From a virus: a stretch of DNA of 44,431 bases. The stretch covers positions 1 through 44,431 of IMG/VR virus record IMGVR_UViG_3300010397_000022. One strand, written 5' to 3'. Shown in pieces: positions 10,234 to 44,431 of this stretch; within the stretch, counting starts at the first letter, position 1, and the number at the start of each line of letters is the position of its first letter. Both the position numbers and the translations under genes were made by a program. The notes beneath the pieces were generated by a model. That model was not told the origin of the DNA. It saw only the letters and a list, made by a program, of their open reading frames with translations, and made no database searches.

Positions 10234-10877
10234 GGCAGAAGGGTTTCCCGTGCTTGGGTATTCGGCTGACCGATCAGCGTATAGGCCGTGCTCATCGCCT
10301 CTTTCCAGCGTGCATTGTCGAGCGGGAAACAGCCGTGTTTTTCAAGGAAACAGTCGGTCAATTCCGCGAGCGCCCGTGCATACTGCGTTGACGTGAAGCG
10401 GCGAGGAATTTCCGGCAGTGAAATATCGGCAGTCTTGATCTCGTGCAGAGCTTCCGTCCGTGTCCCGAATTTCCTCGTCTCTGCCAGGGCAAGATATCGC
10501 ACAGCGCGGTCGTGCTGCCGGCTCGTGTGCATGATCTCTTTTTTCTTCCGGGCGATGAAGCTGGCACGCGCAAGCTCCCGCGTCGGGTGAGCGTGACGAA
10601 CGCCGGCACCTTCCAGCACAAATTTCCAGTGTCGTTTGCGCCGCTCCATGTCCTCAAACATATATCCGGCGACCCAAGTCGGTTCGATCCATGCACCGCA
10701 CGGGGTCCGCTTGACGACAACAAATTCAATTGCACTGATCGCAAGAATATCATCCGACATGCGCGAATTGACTTCTCGGTAAAAGAAATGGTTTTCATGA
10801 AAAGCGCGCTCCCCGCAATTCTTGCAGGTATCGGGAGCCCCGAACACATAAGCGTGCTGCGGCATATCCTCGCTCAT
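10230..10877 (-). CDS. Conserved-type phage protein of unknown function (Cys/His N-terminus)
   Basis: A 215-residue protein directly upstream of the polymerase, with ATGA overlaps at both ends. Residues 15-30 contain a CKNCGERAFHENH cluster that could be a small metal site. The rest is helical and rich in Arg, Lys and Glu, with no catalytic motif that I recognise. Position alone suggests a role in DNA replication. Confidence 0.75.
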   Translation of the reverse strand: MSEDMPQHAYVFGAPDTCKNCGERAFHENHFFYREVNSRMSDDILAISAIEFVVVKRTPCGAWIEPTWVAGYMFEDMERRKRHWKFVLEGAGVRHAHPTRELARASFIARKKKEIMHTSRQHDRAVRYLALAETRKFGTRTEALHEIKTADISLPEIPRRFTSTQYARALAELTDCFLEKHGCFPLDNARWKEAMSTAYTLIGQPNTQARETLLP

Positions 10878-11188
10878 AGGTCATACTCCAATGGAGGGCG
10901 AACCGGCTTCGGCCGTGTCTCGGGATAGTGCTCGTAAATCCATTCGCGGACCTCGTGCGCTGTCTCGATATAATTCGTCGTCGGGTTCTTGGCGGTTTCT
11001 TGACCGGGAGAGAAATTCACCCAAATCTTGCCGCGCAGATTGTAGGGCAGCATTGCCCAATGCTTTTTGCAGCCCCACATGGCGGGAGGCACTTTCGCGT
11101 CGCAGGTAGGCCAATGGCAGTGATGCCCGCCGGCCCCGTGCTTCGCCTGCTGCCGCACATAATCGGCTTTTTCTGCGATGCTCGTCAT
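10874..11188 (-). CDS. Small His/Cys-rich protein with EYDL tail
   Basis: A 104-residue protein. The segment HHCHWPTCDAKVPPAMWGC followed by KKHW looks like a zinc-binding site and is a pattern I associate with phage proteins of unknown function. The C-terminus is PPLEYDL, one of nine DL-ending tails in this genome, encoded GAG TAT GAC CTA and overlapping the next start as TATGA. The start at 11188 follows the upstream stop by one base and removes a non-conserved N-terminal extension. Confidence 0.75.
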   Translation of the reverse strand: MTSIAEKADYVRQQAKHGAGGHHCHWPTCDAKVPPAMWGCKKHWAMLPYNLRGKIWVNFSPGQETAKNPTTNYIETAHEVREWIYEHYPETRPKPVRPPLEYDL

Positions 11189-12579: not shown

Positions 12580-13818
12580 CTAAAATCCAGCTTCCTCCAA
12601 CGGAATAATCTGTGCGTGGCCTTCAAAAACCGTCGCATTTCCACGCGGTTTCGCTTCGGGACGCGGATCGGAGAGCGGTGCAATCGTGAGGCCAGCGCTA
12701 TCCGGCTTGAAACCATATTCCAGCGCCAATTCCTTGCCACGGCTGGACAGTTTCTCGATTTGCGCAGGCGACCGGATTTCCTTCGGCGCATAGGCTTTGT
12801 CGCCGAACGCTTCGAGCAGGGCCGCTTGCGCGCCGGGCTTCCAGACGCGGGCAACCTTTTTCTCGACGAACTTCGCGCTCTTGATCGAGCCGGGCGCTGC
12901 GATCATCCGCGCACGGACAGTATTTTCCAGCGCGGTCATGAAGCGACGGGCGTATTCGCGCTGCGAATAAAGCTCGTCCAATTCTGCGTTCGTAAGCATG
13001 GTGATAAAATCCTCGCCTGCGTCCGCATAGGTGCGGAACGCGCGTTGCATGACAATGCAGTCCAGAAGGACCGGGCAAAACTGGCAGTGATCGCCGGGCA
13101 CATAATCCGCCTCGGTGATCTCGCAATCCTCATCCGTCCCCGTGAGAAAATTCATGCGGGGCAGAAGCTCGTTGTCCAGCCAGTCGAGCACGAAGCCGAC
13201 CGTAGTTTCCCAAATGTCCGGCTCTTCAAAGATGCCGTAGAAATTGGGCTGCACGATCCCGAGGGAAACCCGCAGGCCCCTATTCTCGGGGCGAGTTAGC
13301 CAGGGCTGCGATTTGATCAGCAGCGCGCCGTAATAGAGCAACTGCTTGTTGCCGACTGCGTGGACGCCGACGCCTTCGCCATTCTTGTAGTCGCGCAGGA
13401 AAACCCCGTGCGACGGATTGAACAGGCCGAAATCGACGGTGCCTTTGAACAGCGGGTGGATTTCGGGCAAGTGGATCGTCTCTTCCAACAGCAGGGCCGA
13501 ATTCTCGCCGCCGTAATTTTCCAGCAGCTTTTGGCACTCGTTGAAATAGATTTGCACGGCGTCGAGCGCGATGCCATCGGGCCAGCCGGCGAGATACCCG
13601 TTGAAATCCTCGCCGAGAAATTCAAATGGCTCGCGATCCTGTTCGATGGCTTTCGCGCCTAGCTCATGCGCGCCGGTTCCCCTGTCTGCATATTCGCTCG
13701 GCGTGTCCTCGAATTGACCGGCAAGGATTTGTTTGCGCTGTTCGAGAAACGAGGCGGTGCAGTTGAAAAACCGATGCGCGCCAGAGCCCCCAAGCGGGGA
13801 ATGCTCTAGCTCGATCAT
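12580..13818 (-). CDS. DUF2800 / Cas4-like PD-(D/E)XK nuclease with four candidate Fe-S cysteines
   Basis: A 412-residue protein. Nuclease core: His51 in TGAHELG, Asp129 in GTVDFGLF, Asp143 and Lys145 in LRDYKNGEG, and a Q-x-x-x-Y element near 159-163, which is the PD-(D/E)XK order of Cas4, AddB and RecB nucleases. Cys20 (RFFNCTAS) and the cluster C245, C248, C254 (HCQFCPVLLDC) match the four cysteines that hold a 4Fe-4S cluster in Cas4/AddB. It probably processes DNA ends in phage recombination-dependent replication. The start at 13818 overlaps the upstream stop in TATGA. A 23-bp repeat lies at this junction. Confidence 0.85.
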   Translation of the reverse strand: MIELEHSPLGGSGAHRFFNCTASFLEQRKQILAGQFEDTPSEYADRGTGAHELGAKAIEQDREPFEFLGEDFNGYLAGWPDGIALDAVQIYFNECQKLLENYGGENSALLLEETIHLPEIHPLFKGTVDFGLFNPSHGVFLRDYKNGEGVGVHAVGNKQLLYYGALLIKSQPWLTRPENRGLRVSLGIVQPNFYGIFEEPDIWETTVGFVLDWLDNELLPRMNFLTGTDEDCEITEADYVPGDHCQFCPVLLDCIVMQRAFRTYADAGEDFITMLTNAELDELYSQREYARRFMTALENTVRARMIAAPGSIKSAKFVEKKVARVWKPGAQAALLEAFGDKAYAPKEIRSPAQIEKLSSRGKELALEYGFKPDSAGLTIAPLSDPRPEAKPRGNATVFEGHAQIIPLEEAGF

Positions 13819-13834
13819 AGGTCGAATTCCTGCG
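13812..13834 (-). repeat. 23-bp gene-junction direct repeat, copy 1
   Basis: The sequence around the stop/start junction of the genes at 13815 and 13818 is identical over 23 bp to 16658-16680. It encodes QEFDL, the stop and the first codons of the next gene. See the matching copy. Confidence 0.8.
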
Positions 13835-16578: not shown

Positions 16579-16664
16579 CGCGAAATCGCCAATCCGATAA
16601 CGAGAATTCCGCAGCAGATAATCCAACCTGCCGTTTCAATGAGCGTTTGCAGCAGCGCGATCAT
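16575..16664 (-). CDS. 29-residue membrane peptide
   Basis: The frame ATG 16664 to TGA 16575 is exactly bounded by two 4-base junctions: its ATG lies in the TATGA of the upstream gene and its stop overlaps the helicase ATG. The product is almost entirely one hydrophobic span (about residues 4-26, with WIICCGILVIGLAI). Tight coupling on both sides is the main evidence that it is real. Function unknown. Confidence 0.65.
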   Translation of the reverse strand: MIALLQTLIETAGWIICCGILVIGLAISR

Positions 16665-16680
16665 AGGTCGAATTCCTGCG
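16658..16680 (-). repeat. 23-bp gene-junction direct repeat, copy 2
   Basis: Identical to 13812-13834. Both copies code for a QEFDL C-terminus, its stop codon and the start of the next gene, although the following genes (membrane peptide here, nuclease there) are unrelated. It may be a site where gene cassettes recombine. Confidence 0.8.
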
Positions 16681-17235: not shown

Positions 17236-17641
17236 CAATTTCCCTTTCGATTTCGTTGCCGCGAAGCCGGCTCAACTCGTGAATTCTTTCGACGATGAAA
17301 AATTGCCGATAGCCCGTGTCGAACCGGGGCAGTCCCGCATAGTCCAACTCGAATTCCAGCCGCCGGGCGCTCTTGAGCACGGAAGGCCAGCGGGTCGCGA
17401 AACCGACCGCGATAGCCAGGGCGGGCCACATGGGCGCAAGCTCGTCGGCGGTGTAGAACGGGCGGCACTGCCAATGGGGGAGCCATGACCGCACGGCCTG
17501 CGCGTCGGGATCGTTGACAGGGCGCATAGCAGCCCAATCCTCCATTTCCGCTTTCCACTGCGCGATAACCCCCGGCCGGTTGCCCGTGGCCTTCATCGCC
17601 TTGACGATGGCGTAGGTTTCGCCTTTCCAGAAATCGTTCAT
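17222..17641 (-). CDS. Protein of unknown function between primase and MerR-like gene
   Basis: A 139-residue protein, Trp-rich (WKGETY, WKAEMEDW, WLPHWQCRPFY), mostly helical. It is coupled to the primase gene by TATGA and overlaps the MerR-like gene by 14 bases. No motif that defines function. Confidence 0.7.
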   Translation of the reverse strand: MNDFWKGETYAIVKAMKATGNRPGVIAQWKAEMEDWAAMRPVNDPDAQAVRSWLPHWQCRPFYTADELAPMWPALAIAVGFATRWPSVLKSARRLEFELDYAGLPRFDTGYRQFFIVERIHELSRLRGNEIEREIDAHR

Positions 17642-19545
17642 AGGTCATACTCCCGCGTCGGAATTGCCCACTGCCCTTTCGTCGGCTTGAGGGAAACTAG
17701 CTCTTCGTTCTTCGCCAGTTGCTTGCGGACCAAATCTTTTTCGATCCCGTATTGTCCGGCGATTTCCTGCACAAGCGTTGCGTCGCTGCATTCACCGCCC
17801 TGACTGGCAATAACTTTCATAACTTCCAGCATGGACGCCCAATCGTAACGCGATTTCTGCGGTTTCCCGCTCGTCGCTTCCGGCAGTGCGCCCGAGCGCG
17901 CCAGCACGATAGACGAGCCAAATTCCTTCGGCTCAAAATAGCTGATTTCGTCGCTCACGTCCGCGTCTTTTTGCTTCTTCACGCGAAGCTCTGTCCCGCC
18001 TTGACGCAATCGAGTGGAAATCACCGTGTCCATATTCGCGTAAAAAGCCGACGAGCCGCGAGCGCCCTTCGATTGATCCTTGCCGGTATGGTGGATTGCG
18101 AGCACGAAGCATTCATAGTAGCGGGCCAATTGCTCCATGAAATTCGTGACAATGCTCGCGTCCTTCGTGTTGTTTTCATCCATGCCGGTGAGCAGGCGCG
18201 TTAGTGTGTCGATCACGATCAGGGCGGGCTTGGCTTTCATTTCCCCGAGATCAGCCTTGATATGCTCCCATGCGTCGGAATCTGTGTAGAACGGCACGCG
18301 GTCTTTGATGATAAACCGATGGTCGTTCCGAAATTCAATTCCCTGCCAGTCCATCCACGCGGGCCAGCGCTTGCGCGCCGTCGCAACGGGACCTTCGCCA
18401 GCGAGGAAAAGCACGTCGTTTTTCACGGGCGGCGCATTCCATTGGCCGGGCACGCCGAACGCCAAGCACAAGGCCATGTCCAGCGACAAAAAGGATTTGA
18501 ACGAGCCGCTTTCGCCGTAAATCATTCCCGTGCCATTGGCGGGCAGCACGCCGGGAATTAGCCACTCGGGATCGCGCACGTTGTCGGCGTAATCGTGCAG
18601 CCACTTCAATTTGTCGCGGCTGCGATCCTCGGGCGCTTCCGGCTCGAATTGCTGGCCGACATAATTTGCAAAGGCGTCCTCGTTCGCCTGAAACCCCTTC
18701 ACGCCGCCCTCTGTGTCCTCTCCGTAGGCAGAGGCGTTGCGGATGATCCCTTCCAATTCCCAATCGTCCCACGGCGGGGAGCAAGCCGGGTTCCAGTGCT
18801 CCCACATGAGATCAAAACAGACGCCGGGGGAAATTGCCTTGTCGAGAATTGAAGCGGCGACCTGAAAGGCGAGATTGTTGCCGCCTTTACCCTGGATAGA
18901 AACCCGTCCGGTTTCCGTGTAATTTTTCAGGAGATCGAGCGCCCATGAGACATTGCGGGGTTTGTCTGCGTCCGGGTTCTTCGCCAGCCCTAGCGTGTCG
19001 GTTTTCTTCCGCTCGGGCACGATTGCCGACATGAACGCGGGTAGCGGCTGGATCGTGCCGCCGGGCAGCGCCGTATAGCTGCCATCAACGCGGCCGGGGC
19101 CTGCCTTGGTCTTGCTGCCGGGGAGGACGACATAACCGCCCGAGACTATGCGCCCTTCGCGGTTGATACCGCCGCGCGTGTCGATCCCGTCCGCAATGCG
19201 GCTGGCAGTGCTCGGGCCTTCGCCCTTGAAATAGACGTGCAAGCCGCCCTTGGGGGTCCGAACCTGAAAGGCTGCGTCCACGGCGGCTTTTATCGTCGCG
19301 TCGCGCTCTAGCAGCTTCGCCCACCAGTCTAGGCCGTTGGGGTCGATATCGAAAACGAATAGGCCGGATGGACCGCAGGCAACGCCCCAATTGATTTCGG
19401 TCCCTAGGGCGCGTTGCCATTCCGCAATCTGTGCGGGGTCGCTGCTTGCATCTTTCCAGCCGTTCTTTGTCGCCGGGTCTTTTGTGCCAGCGATGATCGG
19501 AAAAACCTTGCAGCCCCGGAGAATGTCGGGTAATCCTTGCAACAC
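17638..19545 (-). CDS. Bifunctional primase-polymerase / RepA-like helicase ATPase
   Basis: A 635-residue fusion. The N-terminal domain is an archaeo-eukaryotic-type Prim-Pol: KVFPI at the start, catalytic FDIDP (Asp66, Asp68), GGLHVYF with His103, and the RGG...SGGYVVLPGS element. The C-terminal domain is a RecA-like hexameric ATPase of the RepA/AAA_25 kind: Walker A GESGSFKS (344-351), Walker B LIVIDT (442-447), then HHTGKD (485-490) and ARGSSAF. It would prime and unwind phage DNA. It ends PTREYDL. The GTG at 19545 is preferred because CATGGGAGCAGT precedes it and the conserved part begins right after; ATG at 19590 lies inside the upstream hairpin. Confidence 0.9.
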   Translation of the reverse strand: MLQGLPDILRGCKVFPIIAGTKDPATKNGWKDASSDPAQIAEWQRALGTEINWGVACGPSGLFVFDIDPNGLDWWAKLLERDATIKAAVDAAFQVRTPKGGLHVYFKGEGPSTASRIADGIDTRGGINREGRIVSGGYVVLPGSKTKAGPGRVDGSYTALPGGTIQPLPAFMSAIVPERKKTDTLGLAKNPDADKPRNVSWALDLLKNYTETGRVSIQGKGGNNLAFQVAASILDKAISPGVCFDLMWEHWNPACSPPWDDWELEGIIRNASAYGEDTEGGVKGFQANEDAFANYVGQQFEPEAPEDRSRDKLKWLHDYADNVRDPEWLIPGVLPANGTGMIYGESGSFKSFLSLDMALCLAFGVPGQWNAPPVKNDVLFLAGEGPVATARKRWPAWMDWQGIEFRNDHRFIIKDRVPFYTDSDAWEHIKADLGEMKAKPALIVIDTLTRLLTGMDENNTKDASIVTNFMEQLARYYECFVLAIHHTGKDQSKGARGSSAFYANMDTVISTRLRQGGTELRVKKQKDADVSDEISYFEPKEFGSSIVLARSGALPEATSGKPQKSRYDWASMLEVMKVIASQGGECSDATLVQEIAGQYGIEKDLVRKQLAKNEELVSLKPTKGQWAIPTREYDL

Positions 19546-29929: not shown

Positions 29930-30127
29930 ATGTATGATGACCGCTTTGGAAGCCGGGAGGGTCTTGTGGATCGTCTCGAAGAGTGGGCACGACGACTTGG
30001 ACAAGACAAGTCGCTGCCGTGGGCCGGCCTCGGCCTGATCAAAGACCTGACAACTACCGTGGAAGTGCTGCGCGGCGAACCGCCCAAGCCCGATCCCCGC
30101 CAGACGACATTGGAGTTTGACCTATGA
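29930..30127 (+). CDS. 65-residue protein with LEFDL tail
   Basis: MYDDRFGSREGLVDRLEEWA then a helical middle and the C-terminus DPRQTTLEFDL. The tail QTTLEF fits the loose consensus Q-x-x-L-x-F of bacterial sliding-clamp binding peptides; this copy is the best match of the set. The stop overlaps the next start in TATGA. Function unknown, but position before the terminase suggests late replication or packaging. Confidence 0.7.
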   Translation: MYDDRFGSREGLVDRLEEWARRLGQDKSLPWAGLGLIKDLTTTVEVLRGEPPKPDPRQTTLEFDL

Positions 30128-32405: not shown

Positions 32406-34511
32406 ATGGCAGGTATTCGTGACAATCTAGCGCGTGAAGATCGGGTGATCCCCCGCAGCCGCGCTAAAGTCCCGCAGGGGTTCGACAACAAGGAAGATTT
32501 CCTTGAGGACATGCGGAATAAATATGAATGGGGCTACGGCTTCAACGAGCACAACATTCTCGCCGGGAAAGACGACGCGAAATTCGCGGTCGGCAACCAG
32601 TGGGACCCCGTGGTGGAGCAGCGTCGCAAGGACGCACGCAAGCCGGTTCTGACTTTCAACCGATTGGTCGCCTTCATCGCGCAGATCATCGGCAACCGCC
32701 TCATGAACGAGACGGAAATTCGGGTTTTCCCGGACAAGGCCGGCACGAAGGAAATCGCGCTGGTGCGCGAAGGGCTCATCCGCTCGATTTTCAAGAATTC
32801 GCAGGCCGATTTTGCGCGTGACGAAGCGAACAAGTATCAGGTCGTCGGCGGCGAAGGTTATTACACGCTCGGCGTGAATTACGCGAACGATGACGTGTTC
32901 GAGCAGCAGATTGAGCTAGGCGCGGTCACGGACCCCTACTCGGTCGTCATGGACCCGCTCGGGATCGAGCCGTCCGGCGCGGATTGCCAATGGGGCTTCG
33001 TCGGCGACGACATTCCGCAGCAGGAATTCAAAAAGCGCTGGCCGTGGGCGTCCGAAACCTCGTTCATGAACGAAAAGCGCTGGAACCAATCCGGCTTTTG
33101 GCTTTCCGAGGACTGCGTTCGGATTGTTTCCTACTGGCGCATGGTCGTGGACGGGATCAAGGTCCTCGCGCTCTACAAGGACGGCACGGTCCATGACGTG
33201 ACGGACATGGAAGAATTCGAGTATATCAATTTCGTCGAAGAGCGCTCGGACGGGTCCCCCTACACCCGCGAAGTGCCGAACCGCATGGCGCGCATGTATG
33301 TGTGCAGCGGCAACGAAATTCTCGAAGGCCCCTACGATTATCCGATTTCCTCTCTACCGATTTATCGCGTGCCAGGGTGGGAATTGAACGATGGCGAGAA
33401 AATCCATCGATGGGGCTTGATCCGGTTCCTCAAGGACCCGCAGCGCCTTCACAATTATTGGCGCTCGACCGTGGCCGAACAGCTTGTGGCCGCGCCGCGC
33501 AACAAGTGGCTGGCAACGCCGGACAGCGTGAAGGGTCACGAAGTCAAGTGGCGGCGCGCGCCGTCGAGCGACGACCCATTCCTGTATTACAACGATGGCG
33601 AGCAAGCGCCCGTCCACATTCCGCCGCCGGGGATCGACGCCGCGTTGGTCAACGAAGCCGGCATGGCGACGCAGGACCTCAAGGACATTTCCAATATCCA
33701 TGAGGCCGCGCTTGGGATGCCGTCGAACGAGGTTTCCAAGGTTGCGATCCAGCAACGCCAGATGGTTTCGGACGTTGGCACCTACATTTACACCGACCGT
33801 CTGAAAATCGCCGATCAGCGCTGCGCGAAAAATATCAACGAGCTTATCGGGTATATTTACGACACGATGCGCTCGGTGACGATTATCGGCCGCGACGACA
33901 AGGCAATCATGATGGTTCTCAACGATCCATCGGACCCGAATTCGGACGTGACGATGGGCAAATACGGCGTGACCGTCGCGATTGGCCCGGCGACCGAAAC
34001 CAAGCGTGCGCTGGCCTCGGAACAGATGATGGCGTTTGTCAACGCGAACCCGCAGAGCGCGGGCCTCGTCATGGACCTGATCGCCGACGCGCAGGATTGG
34101 CCGAAGGCTGGCGAATTTGCCCGCCGGTTCAAGATGCAGCTTCCTCCGGGCATGGTGCCAGAGGACGAGATGACGCCCGAGATGAAGGCGATGCAGGAAT
34201 CGAACAATCAGGTCCAGCAGATGCAGCAGCAAATCGAGCAAGCCATGGCGCAGGCCGATATTGCGAAAAAGACGGCCGACGCGGCGAAAGCTCAAGCCGG
34301 TGTCCAGCTTGCACGGGCGCAAGCCTACAAGGCCATTCTCGACGCGCAGTCCCGTGCGTCGGACGTGGAAGGCAAAAACGAGGATCGAGATTTTCAGCAG
34401 GTTTTGGACAGTCTCGATCAGCACAATTCCTTGGAGAGCGAAGATCGGGCCTTCGATCACCAGCGGGAACAGGACAACAAGCCCGAAACCAAACCAACCG
34501 GAGAACAGTAA
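32406..34511 (+). CDS. Portal protein, P22 gp1-like
   Basis: A 701-residue protein, close to the P22 portal (725). It begins with a helical arm, then has GVNYANDDVFEQQIELGAV and YSVVMDPLGIEPSG, a pattern shared by P22-type portals, later GWELNDGEKIHRWGLIRFLKDPQ and a QRQMVSDVGTY element. The C-terminal 130 residues are Gln/Ala/Met-rich helix (QVQQMQQQIEQAMAQADIA), comparable with the helical barrel of P22. It forms the dodecameric ring through which DNA passes. Confidence 0.9.
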   Translation: MAGIRDNLAREDRVIPRSRAKVPQGFDNKEDFLEDMRNKYEWGYGFNEHNILAGKDDAKFAVGNQWDPVVEQRRKDARKPVLTFNRLVAFIAQIIGNRLMNETEIRVFPDKAGTKEIALVREGLIRSIFKNSQADFARDEANKYQVVGGEGYYTLGVNYANDDVFEQQIELGAVTDPYSVVMDPLGIEPSGADCQWGFVGDDIPQQEFKKRWPWASETSFMNEKRWNQSGFWLSEDCVRIVSYWRMVVDGIKVLALYKDGTVHDVTDMEEFEYINFVEERSDGSPYTREVPNRMARMYVCSGNEILEGPYDYPISSLPIYRVPGWELNDGEKIHRWGLIRFLKDPQRLHNYWRSTVAEQLVAAPRNKWLATPDSVKGHEVKWRRAPSSDDPFLYYNDGEQAPVHIPPPGIDAALVNEAGMATQDLKDISNIHEAALGMPSNEVSKVAIQQRQMVSDVGTYIYTDRLKIADQRCAKNINELIGYIYDTMRSVTIIGRDDKAIMMVLNDPSDPNSDVTMGKYGVTVAIGPATETKRALASEQMMAFVNANPQSAGLVMDLIADAQDWPKAGEFARRFKMQLPPGMVPEDEMTPEMKAMQESNNQVQQMQQQIEQAMAQADIAKKTADAAKAQAGVQLARAQAYKAILDAQSRASDVEGKNEDRDFQQVLDSLDQHNSLESEDRAFDHQREQDNKPETKPTGEQ

Positions 34512-35579
34512 ATGGCAAAGGAAGTGAGCGCCGCAGAGGCGGCAGAGTTTGAGGCTTTCGCCAATTCGGGCGAAGTCGAAATCGGCGAAAGCAACGTCGC
34601 GGCACCGGCCGAGGGCGAAACCGACGCAGCGGCGACGAAAAATCGCCAGCAGCGCCGCGCCGAACGCACGGGCAAGGCCAATCGTGAGGCGGCAGCGAAG
34701 GCAGCGGCCCCGGCGGACGACGCAGGCGACGGTGACGAAGGCGACGCGGGAGACGCCGACGAAAACGACGAGCAGGGCGACGATGAGGGCGACGAGGACG
34801 AGCAAAAGCCGTCCGAGAGCCACCTTAAGCGGCTCAAGCGCGAGCGCGCCGAGGCGAAAAAGGAAGCTCGCGAGCTTAAGGCTCGTCTGGCGGCGCTCGA
34901 AGGAACCGGCCTTGCGGCGCGTCTCGAAGCTCTCGAAAAAGGGGGCTTGCCAAATTCCGGCGCTGCCGGTAAATCTGGCGACCAGGGAACACCCGCGCCC
35001 GATCCCACGGACACGGACAAATACCCTCTCGGGCACCTCGACGACCGATATATCGAGGATAAGCTTGAATGGCTCGCCGAGAAAAAGGCGACCGAACGAG
35101 CCGATGCGGTCCTGCAACGTCAGCAGGAAGGCGAGCGAAATCAGAACGCGCAAGCAGCGCAGCAGGTTTTGCTCGATAAGGTCGATGACCTCGCAGAACG
35201 CGGCTCTGATCTCCATGACGACTATCAGGAAATCGTTGTCGAAGCTGGTATGCGAGGCGATTGGGACTTGTCCCAAACGACCTTCGAGGCTTGCCACGAA
35301 GCCGAGCACGGCGCTCAAATTCTGCTGGACCTCGCCAACGACAAAAAGGAAGCGACCCGCGTCGCGAAACTTAGTCACTTGGCACAGTTGCGGTATGTCG
35401 AAGAGAAAAACGCCGAGATCGACAAAGTGACCAAGCCTCGGCGAATTCCCCGCGCAGGGGAGCCGCCGCAGAATGCCGCGCGAGGGGCCAACTCCCGAAC
35501 GCAGATTAATCCGGCAACGGAAAACCTGGACGATTTCGAGAAGGCTTGGTTGGCCGACGAGAAAAAGACCAAACGCTAA
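34512..35579 (+). CDS. Scaffolding protein, P22 gp8-like
   Basis: A 355-residue, very charged helical protein between portal and coat, as in P22 (303 residues). The N-terminal 110 residues are dominated by Ala, Asp, Glu and Gly (acidic runs such as DDAGDGDEGDAGDADEND), followed by heptad-like Lys/Arg/Glu/Leu helix and a basic C-terminal part ending EKKTKR, which in P22 scaffold contacts the coat. Starts one base after the portal stop. Assigned by position and composition. Confidence 0.8.
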   Translation: MAKEVSAAEAAEFEAFANSGEVEIGESNVAAPAEGETDAAATKNRQQRRAERTGKANREAAAKAAAPADDAGDGDEGDAGDADENDEQGDDEGDEDEQKPSESHLKRLKRERAEAKKEARELKARLAALEGTGLAARLEALEKGGLPNSGAAGKSGDQGTPAPDPTDTDKYPLGHLDDRYIEDKLEWLAEKKATERADAVLQRQQEGERNQNAQAAQQVLLDKVDDLAERGSDLHDDYQEIVVEAGMRGDWDLSQTTFEACHEAEHGAQILLDLANDKKEATRVAKLSHLAQLRYVEEKNAEIDKVTKPRRIPRAGEPPQNAARGANSRTQINPATENLDDFEKAWLADEKKTKR

Positions 35580-35586
35580 TTTGCGG

Positions 35587-35633
35587 CATCGGGATAGTCC
35601 GATCCGCCTTTTGAGGAAGGGACTATCCCGATG
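35587..35633 (+). promoter_or_regulatory. 14-bp hairpin that sequesters the capsid start codon
   Basis: Arms at 35587-35600 (CATCGGGATAGTCC) and 35620-35633 (GGACTATCCCGATG) are perfect complements. The right arm ends with the coat ATG itself, and the 19-base loop carries the ribosome binding site GAGGAAG. Fully folded mRNA would have its start codon paired, so translation of coat should respond to unfolding. No U-tract, so not a terminator. Confidence 0.75.
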
Positions 35634-36935
35634 GGTGCTGTAACCGCTGAACAACAGAAGCTCGTTCTCAACTCCTTCGCCATGGTGTTGCAGAACAATC
35701 TTGTCACTGGCGACGCCGTGACGTGGAACGAATATGACGGCGAGATGGACGACCGCAACGGCTTGCAGGTCCTCGAACAGATCACGCCGCGCTACAACAT
35801 CACTCGCACCGAAAACGGCGTGAAGGACCTTTCGGCCGGCACGGACGGCACGGTCTTTGGTTCCGAGCTTTTCGAGGTGACGGGCACGTTCAACGCCAAC
35901 ATGGGGTGGGGCGATTTCGTCAAGATCAAGACCATCGGCGACGCTCGCGAGAGCAAGGCACTCCTGGGTGCTGCTACGTCGCTGGCGGAAAAGATCGACG
36001 CCTACATTCTGCAAATCGCTACGCTGGCCTCGGGCGACTGGACCGGCACGCCCGGTAACAACGTGTCCGATTTCATCGACGCGGTGGGCGGCTATACCCG
36101 CCTCAAGGAAAACGGTGTCGGCGACAACGATCTCTCCTACATCATGAACTATTTCGACAAGCAGTTGCTTGGCGATCAGGTCGTGAACCTGCCGAACGAA
36201 ACCGGCGCGGGAATTTTCCGCAAGGGCTTCACGGGTGAGATCAACGGCATCCGCACGATGTTCACCAATCAGCTTCCGGTGCTCACCACGGGCACGCGGG
36301 CGCAGACGACCGGCGCAGTCAACGGCGCGGCGCAGAACGTCAATTACGCGGACGTGGCGAAGGCGGGCACCGTCAACGGTCGCCACCTCACGCAGACGCT
36401 CGCCGTCGATACCTTCACGGGTGCGGCGACGATCAAGCAGGGCGAAGTTTTCACCCTGCCCGGCGTATATGCCTATGACAACCGGAAGCAGGCCCTCGTG
36501 CAGCCGCCGCGCTTGCAGCAGTTCACGGTGGTTGCCGACGCAACGATGACGGCCGGTGCCGGCAATATCATCATCTGGCCGGCGATGATCGTCCCCGGCT
36601 CGGGTGCCGGCGACAACATCAACATCAACACCGCGCACGCGACCGTTTCGGCCGTGGTGGCGGATGGTGCTCTGCTGTCCTTCATCGGTGCTGCCAGCGC
36701 GAATATCGCGCCGCGTCTGATCCTCCAGAAAGAGGCCATCGTCGTTAACACGGTGCCGCTGATCCTGCCGGCTTCGGACACGTCCATGCGTCGCAAGCTC
36801 TCGAAAATTCCGCTGACTGTCCGCATGTGGCAGCACAGCGACTTTTTCACGGGCGCGCATGGGGTCCGCTTCGACGTGGCGATCAACGCGAATATCCGTG
36901 AGCGTTACCGCTTGAGCCGTTTCAACGGCGCATAA
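35631..36935 (+). CDS. Major capsid (coat) protein, P22 gp5-like
   Basis: A 434-residue protein, nearly the same length as P22 coat (430). It opens with a helical arm (EQQKLVLNSFAMVLQNN), then NITRTENGVKDLSAGTDG, FGSELFEVTGTFNANMGWGD and an Ala-rich spine helix; the LPNETGAGIFRKGFTGEING and VNGRHLTQTLAVDTFTGAAT sections are typical of P22-family coats of environmental podophages. It builds the icosahedral shell around the scaffold. Followed by a strong terminator. Confidence 0.88.
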   Translation: MGAVTAEQQKLVLNSFAMVLQNNLVTGDAVTWNEYDGEMDDRNGLQVLEQITPRYNITRTENGVKDLSAGTDGTVFGSELFEVTGTFNANMGWGDFVKIKTIGDARESKALLGAATSLAEKIDAYILQIATLASGDWTGTPGNNVSDFIDAVGGYTRLKENGVGDNDLSYIMNYFDKQLLGDQVVNLPNETGAGIFRKGFTGEINGIRTMFTNQLPVLTTGTRAQTTGAVNGAAQNVNYADVAKAGTVNGRHLTQTLAVDTFTGAATIKQGEVFTLPGVYAYDNRKQALVQPPRLQQFTVVADATMTAGAGNIIIWPAMIVPGSGAGDNININTAHATVSAVVADGALLSFIGAASANIAPRLILQKEAIVVNTVPLILPASDTSMRRKLSKIPLTVRMWQHSDFFTGAHGVRFDVAINANIRERYRLSRFNGA

Positions 36936-36972
36936 GAACAAGCGTCGCACCGTTCTCCGGGCGAAGTTTGGG

Positions 36973-37007
36973 GGCCGTCATCACTCCCGCGTGATGACGG
37001 CCTTTTT
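36973..37007 (+). terminator. Rho-independent terminator after the coat gene
   Basis: GGCCGTCATCAC / GTGATGACGGCC (12-bp perfect stem), 6-base loop TCCCGC, then TTTTT. It would make the coat gene the end of an abundant transcript and reduce expression of the downstream head and tail genes. Confidence 0.92.
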
Positions 37008-44092: not shown

Positions 44093-44431
44093 ATGGGCTT
44101 TCTGAAACCGAAGGCGGCTAAGTCCACCTCGTCGAGCGAAAACGTCAACAATGACCTGATCAAGTCCACCTATGGCGGGCAGATGCAGCAGGGCACCGGG
44201 GCGACGAATTTCCTCTCGCAGCTTCTCGGCGTGAGCCCTGGCGCGGTTTCGGGGACAGCGGCGACTATCGGTAATGCAGCCAACGGGATCGCAGAGGGAG
44301 GCGGCGCACAAGCCGGCTATAACAACTATCTGCAAAACGCCGGCTTCGCGCCAGCGATGCGCCAGCTTTCGCAGGGTGTGACCGGCCAAGGTGCCGCGTC
44401 GGGTCTGTTGAGCAGCGGAGCGACGGCGAAG
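44093..44431 (+). CDS. gp7-like DNA ejection protein, N-terminal part (continues at base 1)
   Basis: The first 113 codons of the 245-residue protein whose remainder is at 1..522; bases 44309-44431 repeat 1-123. Starts MGFLKPKAAKSTSSSENVNN with ATG two bases after the gp14-like stop. The GFLKPK-type opening and the Gly/Ala/Gln-rich following region are common in gp7-like proteins, which are cleaved on ejection in P22. Confidence 0.85.
   Translation, partial: MGFLKPKAAKSTSSSENVNNDLIKSTYGGQMQQGTGATNFLSQLLGVSPGAVSGTAATIGNAANGIAEGGGAQAGYNNYLQNAGFAPAMRQLSQGVTGQGAASGLLSSGATAK
44309..44431. repeat. Right copy of the 123-bp terminal direct repeat
   Basis: Identical to bases 1-123. Joining at this repeat gives a circle of 44,308 bp and restores the gp7-like gene. 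Confidence 0.9.

Follow-up and report, generated by a model that had tools for sequence, protein, structure and literature searches.

Sequence analysis places a strong hairpin in the gap between the scaffold and coat genes at 44 distinct loci, the window included, that belong to a single clade of P22-type coat genes, and this hairpin probably acts as a cis-acting RNA gate on coat translation. The window is the whole stretch of DNA analysed, the 44,431-nt (44.4 kb) IMG/VR virus record IMGVR_UViG_3300010397_000022. The original prediction, made from the letters of this record, had described a translational switch for coat, with scaffold-finishing ribosomes, RNase cleavage, or a regulating protein as its control; its core, a conserved structure that hides the start, is strongly supported by the comparisons below, whereas the opening of that structure by ribosomes is not supported by calculation.

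Between 30.6 and 36.9 kb the gene order is large terminase, P22-type portal, scaffold, and P22-type coat. The scaffold gene (34512-35579, + strand, 355 aa in the ORF list) matches PHROG 8865, head scaffolding protein (E 8.4e-17), and its TAA stop at 35577-35579 agrees with the predicted end at 35579. The coat gene (35631-36935, + strand, 434 aa) matches Pfam P22_CoatProtein (E 3e-18) and PHROG 283, major head protein, and begins with the ATG at 35631-35633. Just 3' of it, on the + strand, is an intrinsic terminator-like hairpin with a T run (36973-37007; a 12-bp perfect inverted repeat, then TTTTT), and most clade loci have hairpins at the matching position. On the opposite strand an open frame of 1198 codons (33354-36950) runs antisense across the end of the portal gene, the scaffold, and the coat; this is probably a shadow frame of GC-rich coding DNA. 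Both ends of the record (1-123 and 44309-44431) carry an exact 123-nt direct repeat, so the genome is probably complete and either circular or terminally redundant.

The 51 nt from the scaffold stop to the coat ATG are mostly occupied by a 14-bp stem and its 19-nt loop, set off from the stop by a 7-nt linker (35580-35586, + strand). The left arm (CATCGGGATAGTCC, 35587-35600, + strand) is the exact reverse complement of the right arm (GGACTATCCCGATG, 35620-35633, + strand), which extends from the Shine-Dalgarno sequence to the coat start codon, the ATG being its last three bases. Both the perfect complementarity and the place of the ATG were thus as predicted, and RNAfold of 35560-35700 returns exactly this 14-bp stem, at -54 kcal/mol as compared to -35.2 ± 3.6 kcal/mol for shuffled sequences (z -5.3; 0 of 200 as good). 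In the same fold the loop (35601-35619, + strand) holds a weak inner helix of three extra pairs (35603-35605 with 35615-35617) past a 2x2 internal loop. A probable Shine-Dalgarno sequence read from the letters, AAGGGA (35617-35622, + strand), has a spacing that would fit the AUG at 35631. The ribosome binding site had been placed in the loop, and this is true of the first half of AAGGGA; its last three bases, however, are the apical bases of the right arm. A stem this long at the most strongly expressed gene had been called unexpected. In simulations, only one window of 40 contained a perfect hairpin of at least 14 bp (loop 3-40), for a mean of 0.025 per window. The 14-bp repeat ranks top among the inverted repeats within 60 nt across the 44-kb window. 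A separate feature of the window is a near-identical GGARTWYGACCTATGA, covering ribosome site through start codon, at five start sites (10874-10889, 13815-13830, 16661-16676, and 17638-17653 on the - strand; 30112-30127 on the + strand). None or few such matches are expected by chance (mean 0.34), and the shared sequence could be a favoured start signal or a common translational operator.

Using the coat protein and coat alignments as queries against IMG/VR and GTDB genomes, we recovered well over 100 coat loci, nearly all metagenomic, with a few relatives in Sphingomonas, Erythrobacter, and Verrucomicrobiota assemblies. The details of the hairpin vary across the 44 loci. The right arms have a mean identity of 60% and exist in 27 distinct versions, loop sequence and length differ, the start codon is within the stem in some relatives and immediately 3' of it in others, and in some the loop is shorter and the whole Shine-Dalgarno sequence is hidden. 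Numbered from the AUG, the right arm of the core helix has its first base between -10 and -18 and its last between -4 and +9. The core stem starts 5-12 nt past the scaffold stop (0-8 nt when outer pairs are counted), and the left arm overlaps the scaffold gene in none of the 44 loci. (At L027 the hairpin is present in folds, and the helix finder chose a different pairing.) The constant is the pairing of the initiation region, with a mean of 81% of positions -13 to +2 paired. Comparing the loops of the clade loci, we found neither a motif common to the whole clade nor a conserved cleavage motif. Some loop segments are alike within the main subclade (e.g., CCGATCCGC), a likeness that is gone in the deeper branches L034, L036, L037, L039, L042, L045, L059, and L070.

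Covariation in relatives had been named beforehand as the observation whose absence would count against the prediction, and covariation was found. With 20 loci placed in a plain sequence alignment, 99.2% of cells are paired (33-49% in slid-alignment controls), both members have changed in four pairs, and covariation scores 0.206 versus 0.093 in shuffles, with none of 500 shuffles as high. Parsimony on the coat tree counts 12 double compensatory changes, 7 single changes that keep the pair, and 1 break among the aligned loci; the double changes are not evenly spread, since nine of the 12 sit on one mid-stem pair. At this pair, 35597/35623 (A5 columns 15 and 44), all four Watson-Crick types are seen, next to nearly invariant neighbors. 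An alignment-free comparison gives the same picture: when arms are swapped between phages with different right arms, binding drops from -28.1 kcal/mol for own arms to -17.0 kcal/mol, whereas outside the clade own and swapped arms are alike (-8.2 and -7.0 kcal/mol). When the left side is shuffled, z is below -3 at every one of the 44 clade loci and for none of 66 other coat genes (L017, tabulated as outside the clade in this test, is a clade member). As judged from these alignments and swaps, selection is acting on the pairing while the sequence changes, and the excess of G-U over A-C within helices (20 vs. 5), together with the greater stability of the sense RNA strand in 37 of 45 cases, argues that the selected molecule is the mRNA.

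On a maximum-likelihood coat tree the hairpin requires a single change, with 43 rows beyond one branch. Support for this branch is 84/77, one change suffices in 88% of bootstrap trees, and none of 500 shuffles was as low. The hairpin is absent from the sister pair L043 and L050 and from 28 further rows of the tree, and the 66 coat genes tested outside the clade are without such a hairpin. Among cultured phages we found no relative above about 33% coat identity; in three cultured phages other than P22 the scaffold-coat gaps are only about 11-23 nt. Four AT-rich loci outside the clade (L090, L094, L135, and L136) have short hairpins of ∼8-10 bp in a similar layout, in which the loop carries the Shine-Dalgarno sequence and the right arm runs up to the AUG (TTAGCTA...TAGCTAATG). 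These are weak, none has z below -3, and individually they are not significant; they may be a second, independent case.

For naked RNA at 37 C, freeing positions -15 to +5 is calculated to cost 18.9 kcal/mol on average in the clade and 25.0 kcal/mol in the window, as compared to 7.1 kcal/mol outside the clade, and arm pairing at the other gene starts in the window is -5 to -18 kcal/mol versus -32 kcal/mol at coat. With so high an opening cost and weaker pairing at other starts, the coat start should be nearly closed on the intact scaffold-coat message. The sense-RNA hairpin fills the gap and pairs the Shine-Dalgarno sequence through the AUG; its folded form would leave coat translation nearly off on the scaffold-coat mRNA, and coat synthesis would become a separately controlled step. 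A closed start would be odd for a heavily used structural gene and would imply an opening step.

A role for the repeat outside translation appears improbable. Perfect inverted repeats can in general be DNA-binding sites, and this one could instead be a DNA-level element (a protein-binding inverted repeat, or a recombination or packaging site) or a transcription terminator; however, the G-U excess and the more stable sense strand speak against this, as does a position fixed to the AUG while the sequence drifts, and we consider this whole group of explanations very improbable. The intrinsic terminator was rejected as a candidate on its own account, the stem being followed by GGTGCTGTAACC with no T run, and no + strand terminator-like site was called there. 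Scaffold-coat fusion by recoding (readthrough, frameshift, or bypass) was likewise rejected for want of a conserved frame or stop context: over the 44 loci the scaffold-coat spacing modulo 3 is divided 18/13/13, and the scaffold stops are TAA in 33, TAG in 10, and TGA in 1. No Rfam model reaches its gathering score anywhere in the window, and within 35500-35720 even a cutoff of E = 10 yields no match. Somewhat less improbable is a role in mRNA processing or stability, with the hairpin acting as a barrier at the 3' end of the scaffold message or as the target of a double-strand nuclease, and the hiding of the start as a side effect. Conservation of pairing alone would suit a sequence-blind nuclease or exonuclease block. 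Start hiding is nevertheless hard to regard as a mere side effect, because the right arm stays locked on the Shine-Dalgarno sequence and AUG in every clade member despite changes in stem, loop, and sequence.

If the hairpin is a gate, loss of its left arm would be the likeliest way of opening it, with translational coupling close behind, and we propose left-arm loss tentatively; for the gate and this route taken jointly we would go slightly further, still short of an even chance. The left arm would be lost by cleavage in the hairpin or through a 5' end inside it, a logic we liken to that of T4 genes e, soc, and I-TevI. Once the left arm is gone and the RNA starts within the loop, the calculated cost for -15 to +5 falls to 8.8 kcal/mol, near that of hairpin-free phages. 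The result would be a coat-only message ending at the terminator just 3' of coat, and in view of that terminator-like hairpin such an RNA would be a complete message. A consensus scan found no sigma70-like promoter at the hairpin, and when promoters initiating within the loop are scored, 38% of controls do as well or better. A phage-specific promoter is possible; a search for phage RNA polymerase gave no matches in 16 records, and the control genomes likewise gave none. In the coupling alternative, which we regard as possible and a little less probable than left-arm loss, ribosomes terminating on scaffold either open the stem or restart beyond it, which would confine coat synthesis to sites of immediately preceding scaffold synthesis. 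The stem base always lies just past the scaffold stop and within reach of a terminating ribosome, the lack of a conserved motif suits a sequence-blind opener such as the ribosome, P22 overlaps its scaffold stop and coat start codons, and known coupled pairs with hidden starts have similar spacing, e.g., rpmI-rplT at +52 nt (PMC12548453). However, the opening by scaffold-finishing ribosomes that had originally been suggested finds no support in the calculations, since the left arm shares no base with the scaffold gene at any locus and 17-21 kcal/mol remains to be paid: with a ribosome at the scaffold stop and a footprint of 10 or 13 nt past it, the cost is still 20.8 or 17.3 kcal/mol, and 79% or 70% of -13 to +2 is still paired. 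Nor is there a leader frame through the left arm conserved among the clade loci, and both frame and scaffold stop codon vary. In addition, a review reports that structure just past an upstream stop lowers coupling and that coupling drops with distance (PMC12548453). The third route, in which scaffold or coat protein, a host helicase, or some other RNA binds the hairpin in trans and opens or holds it in a capsid-assembly feedback, appears improbable to us. The P22 scaffold protein regulates its own synthesis, and some loop segments are shared in the main subclade; however, the similarity is lost in the deeper branches, so a trans factor would need to read the fold alone, and no antisense copy of the left arm that could supply a complementary RNA is encoded elsewhere in the window. 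A protein-recognized motif confined to one subclade is possible. A search for alternative partners of either arm within 300 nt found own partners not clearly stronger than swapped ones, and the open-access literature yielded nothing useful on P22 scaffold autoregulation or on capsid-gene RNA structures.

Going further, one may suppose that the RNA lock, which by calculation opens neither for a free ribosome nor for a scaffold-terminating one, makes coat synthesis depend on a dedicated, undescribed unlocking step that reads the fold rather than the sequence. We consider this strong form unlikely; if it is true, a nuclease, a helicase, or some factor tied to assembly would do the unlocking and so set the timing of coat or the ratio of coat to scaffold. 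The dose and timing of coat versus scaffold in tailed phages is a basic question of assembly, and the element marks coat translation as a controlled step across a clade of uncultured phages. Natural variants are at hand in the 44 folded loci and in the sister lineages L043 and L050, which are without the hairpin.

Among known systems, the MS2-type operator is likewise a hairpin at the start codon of a phage gene, through which coat protein represses replicase. That operator is short and weak and is recognized through sequence-specific features, whereas the coat stem described here is long and strong and has no conserved loop or bulge motif across the whole clade. In P22 the order of gene 8 and gene 5 is the same, the portal and coat families are related, and a stem-loop is annotated after coat; P22 differs in having no intergenic hairpin, because its scaffold stop and coat start share one base. 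Translationally coupled gene pairs (f1 VII-IX, rpmI-rplT, and MS2 coat-lysis; PMC12548453) resemble our loci in their adjacent genes, in a hairpin hiding the second start, and, for rpmI-rplT, in a spacing of about 50 nt. In the f1 example, however, coupling occurs only if the upstream gene extends into the hairpin (PMC12548453), whereas here the left arm begins past the scaffold stop in 44 of 44 loci, so upstream translation would neither enter nor cover the structure as in coupling by unfolding.

The closest parallel is T4, in which the start sites of e (lysozyme), soc, 49, and I-TevI are hidden on longer transcripts and translation is expected to use RNA that lacks the left arm, with an effect of about 100-fold in the case of e (PMC3014915, PMC2988022). 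As in T4, a late or structural phage gene has its Shine-Dalgarno sequence and/or AUG buried in a stable helix on longer transcripts: here the AUG and half of the Shine-Dalgarno sequence lie in the stem, behind the 25.0 kcal/mol of the window and the 18.9 kcal/mol of the clade mean. In T4, late promoters mapped a short way upstream yield transcripts that lack the left arm, and we do not file the coat hairpin as a member of this type because that defining promoter was sought here and not found. By analogy, the coat hairpin would nonetheless work like the start-site hairpins of T4 e, soc, and I-TevI, with the difference that it would control the major coat gene, within that gene's own late operon, and that its fold has been kept by covariation across a clade.
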